From positions 1 to 64,000 of the forward strand of contig WQXO01000006.1 of NCBI GenBank assembly GCA_009784825.1: a stretch of 64,000 nucleotides of DNA, written 5' to 3'. The translations under genes and the position numbers were made by a program. Origin of the DNA: Oscillospiraceae bacterium (GTDB lineage Bacteria > Bacillota > Clostridia > Oscillospirales > Ruminococcaceae). Under the pieces are notes generated by a model. The model was not told the DNA's origin. It searched no databases and worked only from the letters and a program-made list of their open reading frames with translations. The stretch's first letter is position 1. Each line of letters starts with the position of its first letter. Below are positions 15,116 to 41,502 of this stretch, in pieces.

Positions 15116-16069
15116 TTATTTGATAATCCTTATTTCACACTCCAAAGGGATTCCGGTTTTGTTGAAAACCTCGTCTTTCACGTATTTAATCAGCTCCGTC
15201 ACATCGGAAAAAGTGGCACGGTCACGGTTAATAACAAAACCACAGTGCTTCTCGCTGACCTGTGCTCCACCCACAGAATAACCTCTCAGCCCGCTGTCAT
15301 CGATTAACTTAGCGGCAAAGTACCCCTCAGGACGCTTAAACGTACTCCCCCCGCTCGGGAATTCCAGAGGCTGTTTCTCACGGCGAGCCGCCATAACCTC
15401 GTCCATTCTCGCTTTAATCGCCATTGGCTCACCCTTTTCGAGGCGAAACAATACATGCGTAATCACCCAATCGTTCTCGCAGAACACGCTATGTCGATAC
15501 GACAGGCTCATTTCGGGTAATTTCATTTTTAGTTTATCGCAGTTTTCATTTAAGTAAGAGCAACCCCTCACAACGTCCTTGATTTCGCCGCCATAAGCAC
15601 CTGCGTTCATATATAACGCACCACCTGCAGTCCCGGGAATCCCGTAAGCGAACTCCAACCCCGTCAGCGAATTTTCCAATGCGGCGTTACATATATCGGA
15701 TAACTTCGCCCCCGCCTGACAGCTAATATACTCATTCTCTACCACAATTTTACCGAAGTCGTTCCCGAACAACAAAACCAACCCCGACAACCCGTCATCG
15801 CTGATTAACACATTACTGCCGTTCCCAAGAATATACCTCGTTACATTATTGTCCCGACAATACTGCAAAAGCTCCGCAAGCAGCTCGGTTTTATTAATTT
15901 TTACTATATTACATTTCCCGCCAATGCGAAAAGACGTATACGGAGCAACAGGCACGCCCTCCATAAACGTCGCACCGTATTTCCCACATATCGCCTTAAT
16001 CCCATTAACGTCGATTGGCGGGCGAACACAGTTCGCCCCTACGTTCATTATTAATTGTTCATTATTCAC
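15116..16069 (-). CDS. murB: UDP-N-acetylenolpyruvoylglucosamine reductase
   Basis: MurB reduces the enolpyruvyl group of UDP-GlcNAc-enolpyruvate with NADPH and FAD, giving UDP-MurNAc for peptidoglycan. Visible motifs: TSFRIGGKC (FAD-binding start), ILGNGSNVLISD, GIPGTAGGALYMNAGAYGGEI, PEMSLSYRHSVF, FPSGGSTFKRP (catalytic Ser region) and SEKHCGFVIN. It is a short, type-II-like MurB. The start is uncertain: the only long in-frame choice is GTG at 16069, with a poor ribosome binding site. Its first 20 or so codons are derived from a repeat (AATAATGAA units plus a GTAGGGGCG palindrome). Family-like sequence begins near VNGIKAICGKYG. The stop of hprK is only 6 bases away. Confidence 0.93.
   Translation of the reverse strand: MNNEQLIMNVGANCVRPPIDVNGIKAICGKYGATFMEGVPVAPYTSFRIGGKCNIVKINKTELLAELLQYCRDNNVTRYILGNGSNVLISDDGLSGLVLLFGNDFGKIVVENEYISCQAGAKLSDICNAALENSLTGLEFAYGIPGTAGGALYMNAGAYGGEIKDVVRGCSYLNENCDKLKMKLPEMSLSYRHSVFCENDWVITHVLFRLEKGEPMAIKARMDEVMAARREKQPLEFPSGGSTFKRPEGYFAAKLIDDSGLRGYSVGGAQVSEKHCGFVINRDRATFSDVTELIKYVKDEVFNKTGIPLECEIRIIK
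16019..16042. repeat. GTAGGGGCG palindromic element at the 5' end of murB
   Basis: GGGCGAAC (16020-16027) and GTTCGCCC (16031-16038) form a perfect 8-bp stem with a 3-base loop, followed by CTAC. In murB orientation it reads GTAGGGGCGAACTGTGTTCG and is preceded by AATAATGAA-like short repeats. If the GTG at 16069 is used it is translated as VGANCVRP. Confidence 0.75.
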
Positions 16070-19318: not shown

Positions 19319-19442
19319 CATGTTCCTCCATGTGTTTATCTTATTTTGGGATATTATACCACAGAATATATAAAATGTCAATTGCCGTATAATAATTTAA
19401 ACATTTCTTTAGAGAACTCTGTCGATGTAGGGGCGGGCAAAC

Positions 19443-19470
19443 GTAGGGGCGGACGACCCTGTCCGCCCGA
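19443..19470. repeat. GTAGGGGCG palindromic element (intergenic, with a partial second copy)
   Basis: GGGCGGAC (19447-19454) and GTCCGCCC (19461-19468) form a perfect 8-bp stem with a 6-base loop, after GTA. A truncated copy (GTAGGGGCGGGC) lies immediately before it at 19427-19438. It sits just upstream of the toxin-antitoxin promoter. Confidence 0.75.
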
Positions 19471-23756: not shown

Positions 23757-25916
23757 TTGGAAAAACTGATTACACAACTGTCAAAAGAGTTTAAAAGATT
23801 GCCCGAGCATGTCGAAAACGTCATTAAACTAATCGACGAGGGGAACACCATTCCGTTCATAGCACGCTATCGTAAGGAGCTGCACGGAGAAATGGACGAT
23901 TCGTTATTGCGGGATTTATCGGAACGTCTGCAATACTTACGGAATTTAGAGCAACGCAAAGCGGAGATTACCGCCTCAATCGAAAGCCAAGGCAAGCTGA
24001 CGGAAGAGCTTGTTAAAGCAATCGAGGAGGCACAGACGTTGGCTAAGTTAGAGGACATTTACCGCCCGTATAAACAAAAACGCCGCACCCGTGCGACTAT
24101 CGCCCGTGAAAAAGGGTTAGAGCCGCTCGCCGAATTATTGTTTGCACAAGATTTAAGGGAGGGCACTCTTGAGGAATTGGCTCAGCCTTATATCGTTTCA
24201 GAAAAAGGCGTTGAAACCGCCGAGGAAGCGTTACAGGGAGCGAGTGACATAATAGCCGAGCAGATTTCCGATAATGCGGAAATTCGTGAACAGCTACGTG
24301 AATTAATCAATGAATACGGTATGCTGATTTCTGAAGCGACGGACGCAAACGCCGAATCGGTTTATCAGTTGTATTATGAGTTTGAGGAAGCACTTCCCCG
24401 TTTACAAAGCCACCGAATTCTTGCGATTAACCGTGGCGAAAAAGAGAAGTTTCTGAAAGTTTCTATAGACATTGACCCCGCACAGGCACTTAAAATCATC
24501 CGCAAGAAGGTAATAAAACACGGGAGCATTTCCACCGATTTTGTTTCCCGTGCAGGGGAAGATGCCTATGACCGTTTAATCTTCCCGTCTGTCGAGAGGG
24601 AGGCACGCAACACCCTCACAGACACCGCATCGGAACAGGCAATCAAGATGTTCGCAGTTAATCTCAAGCCCACACTTATGCAGCCTCCGGTTAAGAATAT
24701 GGTGACAATGGGGTTTGACCCCGCCTACAGAACCGGCTGTAAAATCGCTGTTGTGGACGAAACAGGGAAGTTACTTGAAACAGGCGTGGTATACCCCACA
24801 ATGCCGCATAACAAAACCGACGAAGCACGTATGGTATTATCCCGAATGATAAAGAAACACGGCGTTAAGGCTATAGCTATCGGCAACGGAACAGCCTCAA
24901 AGGAATCGGAAATATTCGTGGCAGATATGCTTAAAAATATTTCGGGCGTGTCTTACATGGTGGTTAATGAGGCGGGGGCTTCGGTGTATTCCGCTTCTAA
25001 GTTAGCGGCAGGTGAGTTCCCAGAGTTAGACGTGTCTTTAAGAAGTGCTGTTTCGATTGCAAGGCGACTGCAAGACCCGCTCGCAGAATTAGTCAAAATC
25101 GACCCTAAGTCAATCGGAGTGGGACAGTATCAGCATGATATGCCGCCCGCAAGGTTAGACGCTTCATTAGGTGGTGTGGTAGAAGACTGCGTAAACGCTG
25201 TCGGCGTTGACATGAACACTGCTTCCCCCGCATTGTTGTCATACGTTTCGGGGCTTAACGCAACCACTGCTAATAACATTGTAGCCTATCGTGAGGAAAA
25301 CGGTGCATATTCTTCGAGAACGCAGATTAAAAAAATCCCGAAAATCGGTGCAAAGGCGTTTGAGCAGTGTGCAGGGTTTTTACGAATTCCCGAAAGCAAG
25401 AATGTATTAGACAATACCGGGGTTCACCCGGAATCGTACAAGGCAACCGAGAAAATCCTCAACATATGCGGGTATTCACTTAAAGATGTTTTAGCAGGTA
25501 AGGTTTCCGAACTGCGTGAGGTGGTTAAGAAATTGGGGACTGCCACAATTGCCGAGCAAGCGGGAGTGGGCGTTCCCACCGTGAATGACATAGTGGCAGA
25601 GTTACTTAAGCCGGGGCGTGACCCCCGTGACGAATTACCGCCTGCTATGCTGAGAACCGACGTTATGGATATGAAAGACCTCACACCCGGTATGATTATT
25701 AAGGGGACTGTCAGAAACGTGATTGACTTTGGGGCATTCGTGGATATTGGGGTTCACCAAGACGGGCTGGTGCATGTGTCCGAATTGAGCAATCGTTTTG
25801 TCAAGCACCCCTCCGACGCTGTAAAAGTCGGCGATATTGTGAATGTTCGGGTGCTGTCGGTGGATACAGGGAAAAAGCGGATTGCATTAAGTATTAAACA
25901 AGCAGGCGACAAGTAA
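23757..25916 (+). CDS. tex: Tex, S1 RNA-binding transcription accessory protein
   Basis: A 719-residue Tex protein, a nucleic-acid-binding factor related to eukaryotic Spt6 that associates with transcription. The order is the N-terminal helical region (PEHVENVIKLIDEGNTIPFI), the YqgF/RNase H-like domain (MGFDPAYRTGCKIAVVD), a helix-hairpin-helix pair (NIVAYREENGAYSSRTQI) and the C-terminal S1 domain (VIDFGAFVDIGVHQDGLVHV). I set the start at the TTG at 23757, which has AAGGAG 7 bases upstream and matches the family's N-terminus (LITQLSKEF). The ATG at 23718 lies before the transcription start. Length is normal. Confidence 0.95.
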   Translation: MEKLITQLSKEFKRLPEHVENVIKLIDEGNTIPFIARYRKELHGEMDDSLLRDLSERLQYLRNLEQRKAEITASIESQGKLTEELVKAIEEAQTLAKLEDIYRPYKQKRRTRATIAREKGLEPLAELLFAQDLREGTLEELAQPYIVSEKGVETAEEALQGASDIIAEQISDNAEIREQLRELINEYGMLISEATDANAESVYQLYYEFEEALPRLQSHRILAINRGEKEKFLKVSIDIDPAQALKIIRKKVIKHGSISTDFVSRAGEDAYDRLIFPSVEREARNTLTDTASEQAIKMFAVNLKPTLMQPPVKNMVTMGFDPAYRTGCKIAVVDETGKLLETGVVYPTMPHNKTDEARMVLSRMIKKHGVKAIAIGNGTASKESEIFVADMLKNISGVSYMVVNEAGASVYSASKLAAGEFPELDVSLRSAVSIARRLQDPLAELVKIDPKSIGVGQYQHDMPPARLDASLGGVVEDCVNAVGVDMNTASPALLSYVSGLNATTANNIVAYREENGAYSSRTQIKKIPKIGAKAFEQCAGFLRIPESKNVLDNTGVHPESYKATEKILNICGYSLKDVLAGKVSELREVVKKLGTATIAEQAGVGVPTVNDIVAELLKPGRDPRDELPPAMLRTDVMDMKDLTPGMIIKGTVRNVIDFGAFVDIGVHQDGLVHVSELSNRFVKHPSDAVKVGDIVNVRVLSVDTGKKRIALSIKQAGDK

Positions 25917-25923
25917 GAATTAC

Positions 25924-25975
25924 AAAAAGTGCAAAAAAGTACAAAAAAGTGCAAAAAAGTACAAAAAAGTGCAAA
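25924..25975. repeat. Phased A-tract array after tex
   Basis: Five runs of five or six A and a sixth of three A are spaced exactly 10 bases apart (first bases 25924 or 25933, then 25943, 25953, 25963, 25973), alternating GTGC and GTAC between runs. A-tracts in phase with the helix give intrinsically bent DNA. It lies between the tex stop codon and the terminator. Confidence 0.85.
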
Positions 25976-25987
25976 TATGTTAAAAAA

Positions 25988-26008
25988 AGAAGCGGTTAGT
26001 CCGCTTCT
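25988..26008. terminator. Bidirectional terminator between tex and the NPGTG-protein operon
   Basis: AGAAGCGG and CCGCTTCT form an 8-bp stem with loop TTAGT. On the plus strand CTTTAT follows; on the minus strand seven U follow. It can end both converging transcripts. Confidence 0.88.
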
Positions 26009-27168: not shown

Positions 27169-28482
27169 TTATCGTTTCTTTTTCCGCATTGCTGCATTTT
27201 GGAATTGCCCTAATAATGCTGTATATCTTTTTTCCAAGGTATCATAATTACGCTTCATTTCGGCGAGTTCGCACTGTAACCGCACGATTTCGGTGTTCTC
27301 GTTTAACACCTCTGAAGAAATATTACTCAACAGTTCATCCGTCCATATTTCGCTGTCGGGCTCTAAGCCTTTCCAGTTTTCAAACGTGTCCATAAGTAGC
27401 TTCTCCCATTTATCGAATATAATATCCTCACTGTATTGCTCTTGAAATAACCGTTGTGCAGCTTTTCCCAAATCCTCCCGTTTCTCGGGTGACAGTGCCA
27501 TTAAGTGACGCAGGGCTTCTGATAAGGCTTCGATTGTGTTTTCTTCAGCGAGAACGCCTGTTTCATCGGTTATTAACGCTTTTGAAGCGGTGCAGGACGA
27601 AAATCCGACAAACGGTAACGCATGGGCGGCGGCTTCCCCGAATACCATCGGCAATCCCTCTGCACGAAACGACGGTAAACAAAATATATCAGCACTGTTA
27701 TAATGCTCTGACGGGTTTGAAACCGCTCCTGTAAAGATTATTAATTCGGGTCGCCCGGGTGTGCGACCCCTACATAATCCTAATTGTTCTGCCATGATTT
27801 TATAGTATTCCATGAAAGACCCGTCGCCCACTAACTTTAACCGCCAATTCGGGAAGTCGTTGGTTAATAAAGCGAATGCCCGCATTAATACCGAGAACCG
27901 CTTGTCCTCTTCGTTAAACCGCCCTACCGCAATTATTGTTCTTGTGTCTTTTTCTCGTCGGTGTGAAAAGTCCACTTTCTCGGGTGGTTGTGCGGGGTTG
28001 CCTATGACGGTCATTCGGGATTGGAGAGGTAGGGGGTAATAGGGAACGTATTCCTTCAAAAGCACTTGAACGGCGGCACAGGAGTATATTGTCCCGTAAT
28101 GCACGTAAGGATTCCACCGTTCATACACGAATACACGAGGGTCGGCAGGTTCACCGTGAACCCATGGAATCCCTGTTCCTCGAAACAGCTTGGGCATAAG
28201 CGATAGTTGACTACTTCCGATTGAAGCGGCACAAATATTAATCCCCGATGCCATGAGTTTCCCCCTTGCTTCGGCGATTCCCGTTTCGCTGTCTGTGTTT
28301 ATTTCGATTAATTCATGTGGGTAGTTTAATTCAGACGGGCGACCACAGGTCGCCCCTACAGCACATGCAATTATAACTACTTCATGCCCTCGAACGGTCA
28401 TGGCTTGTGCTATTCTGTCGATTAATCGTGTTATCCCCGTCCAACTGCGAAGATGGTCTAAGCTGACAAATCCGATTTTCAT
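27169..28482 (-). CDS. Glycosyltransferase family 4 with two in-frame palindrome insertions
   Basis: A 437-residue GT4 (GT-B fold) enzyme. The N-terminal acceptor domain begins KIGFVSLDHLRSWTGITRLI. The donor domain contains the usual landmarks (IIAVGRFNEEDKRFSVLMRA; LVGDGSFMEYY; SADIFCLPSFRAEGLPMVFGEA, the E-x7-E-like nucleotide-sugar region). A C-terminal coiled coil follows (about 385-430). Two GTAGGGG palindromes are translated in frame: VGATCGRP near residues 42-49 and CRGRTPGRP near 237-245, both in loops where family members would have shorter turns. It may glycosylate a glycan or surface protein made with its operon. The donor sugar is unknown. Confidence 0.82.
   Translation of the reverse strand: MKIGFVSLDHLRSWTGITRLIDRIAQAMTVRGHEVVIIACAVGATCGRPSELNYPHELIEINTDSETGIAEARGKLMASGINICAASIGSSQLSLMPKLFRGTGIPWVHGEPADPRVFVYERWNPYVHYGTIYSCAAVQVLLKEYVPYYPLPLQSRMTVIGNPAQPPEKVDFSHRREKDTRTIIAVGRFNEEDKRFSVLMRAFALLTNDFPNWRLKLVGDGSFMEYYKIMAEQLGLCRGRTPGRPELIIFTGAVSNPSEHYNSADIFCLPSFRAEGLPMVFGEAAAHALPFVGFSSCTASKALITDETGVLAEENTIEALSEALRHLMALSPEKREDLGKAAQRLFQEQYSEDIIFDKWEKLLMDTFENWKGLEPDSEIWTDELLSNISSEVLNENTEIVRLQCELAEMKRNYDTLEKRYTALLGQFQNAAMRKKKR
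27748..27773. repeat. Palindromic element inside the GT4 coding region (copy 2)
   Basis: GGGTCGC (27748-27754) pairs with GCGACCC (27763-27769), followed by CTAC. In the gene's sense strand it begins GTAGGGGTCGC and is translated in a different frame from the other coding copies, giving CRGRTPGRP. Confidence 0.7.
28337..28359. repeat. Palindromic element inside the GT4 coding region (copy 1)
   Basis: GGGCGACC (28337-28344) pairs with GGTCGCCC (28348-28355) around ACA, then CTAC. In sense orientation GTAGGGGCGACC..., translated VGATCGRP, the same frame as the murB copy (VGANCVRP). Confidence 0.78.
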
Positions 28483-29133: not shown

Positions 29134-30432
29134 TTATAGCATTGCCTTTCCGTTGATATAGATTTGACAGCCGTAGGCGGGGAGGTCAACCCTGCCTATT
29201 TCTGCAATATCAAATGTGACCGCCTTGTCGTCTGCGTTTAGTAATACTATTGCTTTGGAATCACCGTCCTGCCTTGCGAATGCGTATTGCCTGTTTTGCA
29301 ATTGCAATTGCGTATAGTCCCCATTGTATAGTGCGGGGGTTTCACTGTGCAGGCGGGTCAGTTTGGTAATAAGGTTGGGCAACGGGGCGATGTGGGCATC
29401 GCCCCCTACATAATCTGATAATATAAATTCAGGGCGTAAGCCGTCGTCACCGTCTTTCTTGTCGCCGGTCTGCCCGTATTCACTGCCGCAGTAGACACTC
29501 GGGATTCCGGGCATGGTGAACAATAATGTATATGCGGCTTCGATGTGTTTTGGATTTTTAAGCTGTGTGGTTATTCTTGAAACATCGTGATTGTCAAGGA
29601 AGCAGGAGAGCTTCTTGCCACGGTAAAGACACCAGTTCTCCTTGCCGAATTGGCGGTTCAAAGAATAAGCGATTTCAAACATATTAAGCTCGTTGAAGCT
29701 GGAGAACAACCCCTTGAAGCATTCATAATTCGTGACGCTGTCAAGCATTTCGGGGTTGAGCCACTTATTGTAATCCCCGTGGAGCGTTTCACCGAGGAGC
29801 CAGAAGTCCGGCTTCAAACCCTTGCAGTGAACCCGAAGCTCTTTTAAGAAGTTCAGGTCTAAGCAGTAGGCAACGTCTAAACGGAGCCCGTCTATGTCAT
29901 AATCCCTTACCCAGCCGGAAATGACTTCTTTTAAATAATCACGGACGGCAGAGTTGTAGAGGTTCAGCTTTACTAATTCGTAATGCCCCTCCCACCCCTC
30001 ATAGAAAAAGCCGTCATTGTAATTACTGTTGCCGTCCCTTACGTGAAACCAGTCCTTATATTGGCTGTTGAACTTGTTTTGACGCACGTCCTTGAATTGA
30101 GCAAAATCACGCCCGACGTGGTTAAACACGCCGTCGAGAATAATTTTTAATCCGTTGTCGTGCAGGGCTTGGCAGACTTTTTTAAAGTCCTCGTTTGTTC
30201 CTAAGCGAGAGTCCACCTTTGTGTAATCGGCAGTGTCATACCCGTGGGCAGACGATTCAAACAAGGGATTGAACATTACCGAGTTGAAACCCAACCGCTT
30301 AATTTCGGGGATATGGTCGATTACTCGAAGAATTCTCGATTCGGTTGATTGGACAAAATCGTTTTTTCTGGGGACGCCACAGTATCCTATCGGGTAAATC
30401 TGGTATATTACCGCATTGTTGAACCATTCCAT
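29134..30432 (-). CDS. GH13 alpha-amylase-family glycosidase with in-frame palindrome
   Basis: A 432-residue cytoplasmic GH13 enzyme lacking a signal peptide. The start is taken as ATG 30432 (MEWFNN), where NNAVIYQIYPIGYCG matches family N-termini. GH13 conserved regions: I DGVFNHVGRDF, II DGLRLDVAY (nucleophile Asp), III LLGETLHG (acid/base Glu) and IV FLDNHDVSRI (Asp). These indicate an alpha-glucan or oligosaccharide hydrolase (maltodextrin glucosidase or neopullulanase-like). A palindromic element is translated as VGGDAHIAP near residue 342, at the end of the barrel (DDGLRPEFILSDYVG...). The C-terminal all-beta domain is short. It leads an operon with a HAD protein, consistent with intracellular sugar use. 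Confidence 0.88.
   Translation of the reverse strand: MEWFNNAVIYQIYPIGYCGVPRKNDFVQSTESRILRVIDHIPEIKRLGFNSVMFNPLFESSAHGYDTADYTKVDSRLGTNEDFKKVCQALHDNGLKIILDGVFNHVGRDFAQFKDVRQNKFNSQYKDWFHVRDGNSNYNDGFFYEGWEGHYELVKLNLYNSAVRDYLKEVISGWVRDYDIDGLRLDVAYCLDLNFLKELRVHCKGLKPDFWLLGETLHGDYNKWLNPEMLDSVTNYECFKGLFSSFNELNMFEIAYSLNRQFGKENWCLYRGKKLSCFLDNHDVSRITTQLKNPKHIEAAYTLLFTMPGIPSVYCGSEYGQTGDKKDGDDGLRPEFILSDYVGGDAHIAPLPNLITKLTRLHSETPALYNGDYTQLQLQNRQYAFARQDGDSKAIVLLNADDKAVTFDIAEIGRVDLPAYGCQIYINGKAML
29384..29409. repeat. Palindromic element inside the GH13 coding region
   Basis: GGGGCGATG (29384-29392) pairs with CATCGCCCC (29397-29405) around TGGG, then CCTAC. Sense orientation GTAGGGGGCGAT..., translated VGGDAHIAP in the same register as the GT4 copy 1 and murB copies. 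It is a perfect 9-bp stem inside an enzyme gene. Confidence 0.78.
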
Positions 30433-30470
30433 TATGTACACCGCCTTTACAGTAGATTATAGGTAAGTAT

Positions 30471-41471: not shown

Positions 41472-41474
41472 AAG

Positions 41475-41502
41475 TAGGGACACCATATATGGTGTCCCTA
41501 CG
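41475..41502. terminator. Perfect 28-bp palindrome between convergent uvrA and transglutaminase gene
   Basis: GTAGGGACACCATA and its exact complement form a 28-base palindrome with no loop bases. It starts and ends like the GTAGGG elements and sits 3 bases after the uvrA stop. It may end transcription from both sides, but no long U-tract follows. Confidence 0.65.

Follow-up and report, generated by a model that had tools for sequence, protein, structure and literature searches.

We wanted to understand how a palindrome comes to be read in frame inside an intact enzyme gene. On the minus strand, positions 28336-28359 of the window (the whole stretch of 64,000 nucleotides that was analyzed) read GTAGGGGCGACCTGTGGTCGCCCG, a 24-nt palindrome lying within the ORF 27169-28482 (-). 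Its in-frame reading is VGATCGRP, residues V42 to P49 (codons 42 to 49), and the gene around it is intact, as the first-pass annotation had reported. That annotation further proposed that a mobile or recurrent palindrome had inserted here without breaking the frame, as in Rickettsia, and that copies in murB and in a GH13 gene shared its codon register. The label "GT4" is also taken from it; the profile support is for Glycos_transf_1, a homologue of the protein was found in an Oscillospiraceae MAG, and the enzyme activity of the GT4-like protein is predicted from its sequence.

The head of the element, GTAGGGGCG, occurred five times in the window versus 0.21 expected, and none of 100 shuffles reached five. 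The features of the window were the following:

27169..28482, minus strand: intact GT4-like glycosyltransferase gene of 437 aa with two REP copies (Pfam PF00534, Glycos_transf_1, E 2.5e-27)
28336..28359, minus strand: GTAG-REP with a GACC stem, codons 42-49 of the GT4-like gene
27747..27773, minus strand: second, diverged REP-like copy in the GT4-like gene, GTAGGGGTCGCACACCCGGGCGACCCG, with a 7-bp stem and a codon register unlike that of the first copy
29383..29409, minus strand: GTAGGGGGCGATGCCCACATCGCCCCG, a REP-like copy read in frame within a GH13 (alpha-amylase family) gene at 29134-30441
16019..16042, minus strand: GAAC-stem REP situated at the 5' end of the murB gene (15119-16069) and not certain to be translated
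19427..19468, plus strand: pair of GTAGGGGCG heads, of which the second has a GGAC-GACCCT-GTCC stem, within no ORF of at least 100 aa
49753..49778, plus strand: REP-like copy with an imperfect stem, within no ORF of at least 100 aa
41474..41501, plus strand: GTAGGGACACCATATATGGTGTCCCTAC, a perfect double-foot palindrome in the gap between two convergent ORFs, near the ends of both

The proposed sharing of codon register held for the GH13 copy, which is read as GTA GGG like the GT4-like copy and differs from it in the stem. The murB copy has the same register as well, and only its translation is in doubt, because it starts just 9 codons past the earliest candidate start codon and follows an AT-rich stretch. 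The palindrome at 41474-41501 was the sole double-foot palindrome returned by a pattern scan (more than 70% palindromic, 24 to 52 nt) of the genome's scanned loci. Elsewhere in the window, a tandem 10-bp repeat (AAAAAGTGCA/AAAAAGTACA) occupies 25914-25989, just downstream, on the minus strand, of an ORF with Pro/Glu-rich protein repeats.

Over the whole genome (2.18 Mb), we counted 83 copies of GTAGGGGCG versus 8 of a reversed control pattern. The REP unit measures 23 to 26 nt, and its stem was of the GAAC/GTTC type in 36 copies, GGAC/GTCC in 12, GACC/GGTC in 8 and of other types in 27. The GTAG tag flanks the hairpin on one side and takes no part in the pairing; a stem of at least 6 bp was found in 62 of the 83 copies and in none of the other 21. 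Five inverted pairs spanned 70 to 76 nt (L002, L008, L019, L029, and L050). The comparison of coding and intergenic copies that had been suggested as a check was made: by a single gene model based on codon bias, run without annotation and applied to copies with a hairpin of at least 6 bp, 31 of the 62 lay inside ORFs, 26 between genes, and 5 on an edge, and a slightly different counting rule gave 30 coding copies and 31 that were not (n = 61). With coding sequence making up 88% of the genome DNA sampled and 90% of the window, the half of the hairpin copies that lie in ORFs is still fewer than chance placement would give (p = 3e-13), so that genes are avoided.

The 31 coding copies were read 14 times in the sense frame GTA GGG, 5 times in the next sense frame, and 4 and 8 times in two antisense frames, while none used the frame that reads TAG and none the third antisense frame. 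Pfam was run on 28 of the 29 distinct host ORFs from the count of 30 coding copies and on the GH13 ORF, and 28 of these 29 were matched. The matched hosts include MnmG, MutS, Lon, RlmN, FabD, NadC, QueA, DnaX, ThiI, the CCA transferase, a UvrD-type helicase, and Sua5. For copies at ORF ends (e.g., L044, L029, L007, and L037), translation is less certain. At one locus rich in repeats (L004), two GGAC-type REPs lie in adjacent ORFs, one of which has a Big_2 domain.

A GTAG head, a hairpin, inverted pairs, and association with RAYT genes are likewise features of the GTAG REP superfamily, as are intragenic copies, including some in repair and RNA-modification genes, according to the sections of PMC3733652 consulted. 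There, intragenic GTAG REPs, often in repair genes, are treated as insertions and most REPs are intergenic, which differs from the 31 of 62 hairpin copies that are coding here. The kind of element is thus already known, and the present copies are another family of GTAG REPs, in a genus that is unnamed in the parts of the literature examined; the main text of PMC3733652 does not contain the words Clostrid, Firmicutes, or Ruminococc. A search of paper texts for the GTAGGGGCG string was discarded, since the titles among the matches listed look unrelated. The parallel drawn with Rickettsia turned out to be loose. In-frame palindromes in likely functional genes are common to both, but the intragenic repeats of R. 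conorii are, in the consulted sections of PMC3733652, RPE-1, which is longer, and RPE-4 and RPE-6, which belong to the CGTC superfamily, a class without association to transposase genes, whereas the tag here is GTAG.

We then looked for the mobilizing enzyme. PF01797 (Y1_Tnp) gave no match in this genome, and the suggestion that the genome has no mobilizer was misleading: RAYTs score weakly against PF01797, which thereby missed the RAYT-like genes. Weak PF01797 matches in G020 and G052 were both RAYT-like ORFs, and an alignment of these two genus proteins matched 11 of the 71 genus genomes, including this one (partially in G004, G055, and G062). This genome carries two RAYT-like genes, on contigs C3 and C25 (the latter cut by the contig end), and a fragment on C15. 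Strong Y1 matches in the genus mostly had open frames of 135 to 175 aa, a size that we take to be that of IS200 transposases. All nine ORFs scanned with NF047646 matched with an E value of 1.5e-14 or better; since their scores (54.1 to 63.8 bits) fall below the curated cutoff of 80, we call the genes RAYT-like and do not file them under that family. The low scores presumably reflect interruption of the profile by REP peptides. In the seven ORFs examined, which leave out the RAYT-like match of G022 (L182), a simple motif search found an HUH motif and a C-terminal Tyr motif every time, with an in-frame REP between the two. REPs in frame within the transposase gene, generally between HUH and Tyr, as well as double-foot palindromes, are described for TnpA-REP subclass 2.4 in the portions of PMC6006769 consulted; the likeness is one of REP position between the motifs, and five of the seven ORFs here differ in also having a REP upstream of HUH. 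The REPs within the C3 and C25 reading frames are of the GGAC and GAAC subtypes, respectively, which are the two commonest stem types of the genome. The C25 ORF (L187:1-504), whose beginning coincides with the contig end, opens on a series of PQPPVC repeats.

The number of REPs follows the presence of these genes. The median number of GTAGGGGCG copies was 38 in genomes with a RAYT match versus 5 in those without (71 genomes, relatedness ignored; Mann-Whitney p = 1.1e-5), and a match was found in 9 of the 13 genomes with at least 20 copies versus 2 of the 58 with fewer, relatedness again being ignored. Against the link, four of the REP-rich genomes lacked a match; G049 and G043 are 61 and 71% complete, but G064 and G070 are 96 and 98% complete.

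The bases next to the tag were also informative. A pyrimidine (C or T) preceded GTAG in 57 of the 61 copies and G in none, and the dinucleotide CT stood there in 17 of 61 versus about 4 expected. Flanking direct repeats of 3 to 5 bases did not exceed their level in shuffles (four offsets for 61 copies), hence there was no sign of a target-site duplication; this class of enzyme is expected to leave none. The pyrimidine and CT bias is in line with the cleavage of REP substrates at CT by TnpA-REP: in the parts of PMC8266576 consulted, the enzymes of E. coli, S. maltophilia, and Marinomonas share the GTAG foot and cleavage at CT (in Marinomonas also at CA), whereas the enzymes here are known from their genes.

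We conclude that the palindrome at 28336-28359 belongs to a family of GTAG-tagged REPs very probably mobilized by the genome's own RAYT/TnpA-REP-like HUH single-strand transposases. The enzyme would probably recognize the GTAG foot and the hairpin on single-stranded DNA, cut next to a CT-like dinucleotide, and then transfer the REP strand, and a copy landing in a gene would persist only if it keeps the reading frame open and is tolerated by the protein fold. Both mobilization itself and the strand-transfer step are what we infer here. Of the original proposal, a recurrent, probably mobile element lying in frame thus stands. Its insertion at this very site is not supported: the annotation had expected homologues to lack 8 to 10 residues exactly at the palindrome, and all four homologues (L063, L088, L089, and L090; 55 to 59% identity) are instead longer there by 1 or 3 residues, so nothing was added. 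At 28336-28359, the REP codons stand where the homologues have a segment of much the same length. The same check applied to the copy at 27747-27773, which had escaped the annotation, gave the predicted result, exactly 8 residues being absent from all four homologues.

This duality extends to other genes. We compared residue counts with homologues at 12 sites (12 of the 31 coding copies and the diverged GT4 copy, with MutS classed by its commonest value), and six were in place within 3 residues while six were net insertions of at least 8. In FabD (29 sequences aligned of 67 other genomes with a match), 27 of the 29 genus orthologues aligned without a gap, as did the three PDB chains shown, and two were shorter by 3 residues. 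In an alignment of 18 sequences, the FabD REP comes directly after an Arg that never varies, and a Met that hardly varies has been lost. RlmN was 2 residues longer than 26 of 29 relatives (from 67 other genomes), differed by +1, +3, and 0 from one each of the others, and showed no net change from two PDB chains. QueA differed by -3 and -1 from two PDB chains, and NadC by +3 from three. For MutS (26 of 29 rows used, three blank rows being left out), the difference was -1 for 17 relatives, 0 for 2, -2, -3, -5, +2, and +3 for one each, and +8 for 2; this site is weak evidence because the length of the loop varies. The MutS loops of the REP-rich G017 and G022 (L296 and L303) are 8 residues shorter than that of the REP-bearing MutS of this genome. 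Besides the diverged GT4 copy, net insertions were found in ThiI (about +10), the CCA transferase (+14), Lon (+14), a methionine-gamma-lyase family protein (+16 to +18, with more REP-like sequence adjoining the copy), and MnmG (+20, with an inverted pair). No empty site was seen at the DNA level among the aligned relatives, whose protein identity is at most 75%.

The in-place sites could have arisen in two ways, both compatible with mobilization by RAYT-like enzymes. REPs may always land as plain insertions, later deletions having restored the length of the loop, so that the in-place appearance is secondary; we hold this to be a serious contender whose chances fall slightly short of even. Six of the 12 compared sites are indeed net insertions of at least 8 residues, the MutS loop ranges from 5 residues longer to 8 shorter than here over 26 relatives, two of which lack exactly 8, the GT4 loop differs by 2 residues across its four homologues, and the closest FabD relative found (L092, 64% identity) is among those that are 3 residues shorter at the site. 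What this account explains less simply is FabD, since it requires an insertion and then a deletion that matches it in length, within a conserved block, directly after an invariant Arg, where the eight REP codons align gapless with nearly all relatives and with the PDB chains. Alternatively, and more tentatively, RAYT-type strand exchange might overwrite, a resident stretch of the coding strand being swapped for a REP of similar length without lengthening FabD, RlmN, QueA, or the GT4-like protein; we consider this possible, though rather unlikely. A limited literature search, covering parts of PMC3733652, PMC6006769, PMC8266576, and PMC2817692 among others, found no description of REPs as replacements rather than insertions.

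A different view is that the palindromes are maintained because they act at the RNA or protein level, as mRNA hairpins, terminators, or peptides, and are not mobile DNA. Usage of the five open frames is indeed uneven (14, 5, 4, 8, and 0; p = 0.0015), which makes selection on the encoded peptide probable, and mRNA and gyrase-binding roles of other REPs are discussed in the sections of PMC3733652 consulted. However, unrelated genes carry the REPs in either orientation and in a total of four frames, and RAYT-like genes are present, which makes such a function improbable as the reason for their existence. The idea that the GT4 match arose by chance from the codons of an ancestral protein can safely be set aside: eight residues carry little information alone and none were added at 28336-28359, but the 24-nt unit recurs across the genome in several frames and between genes, and none of the four homologues shares the residues and codons; such sharing is what the annotation had named as evidence against an insertion.

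To place the GTAG-REP family in its genus, we turned to coding occupancy in the congeners. In G020, which has 793 copies in all, 53 copies in 141,772 bases included none wholly within a predicted gene and two overlapping an edge, and under the hairpin rule 0 of 27 copies were inside genes. In G022, for which 19 of 82 copies were examined, four of the six with a hairpin lay inside ORFs. Coding occupancy differed between this genome and G020 (p = 1e-6) and, given the 0 of 27 in G020, is not a fixed property but varies within the genus. REPs have mostly been described as intergenic, and here half of the hairpin copies are in reading frames, many of them of housekeeping enzymes; a congener with about ten times the copies, none of those examined being inside genes, makes the entry of REPs into genes testable. 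The in-place cases raise the possibility that replacement of short segments is a route of protein change. If overwriting were true, short segments of core enzymes would have been replaced by a REP-encoded peptide.

Outside the genus, the exact GAAC subtype was absent from 397 of 398 genomes of the phylum, in a sample composed without congeners and without G020, which has the subtype; the single match was this genome. The exact 23-nt GAAC-type REP was also found in 20 stretches of viral contigs (L263 to L282), some copies lying within ORFs of at least 100 aa, which may indicate that the element travels with phages or that these contigs are host DNA.
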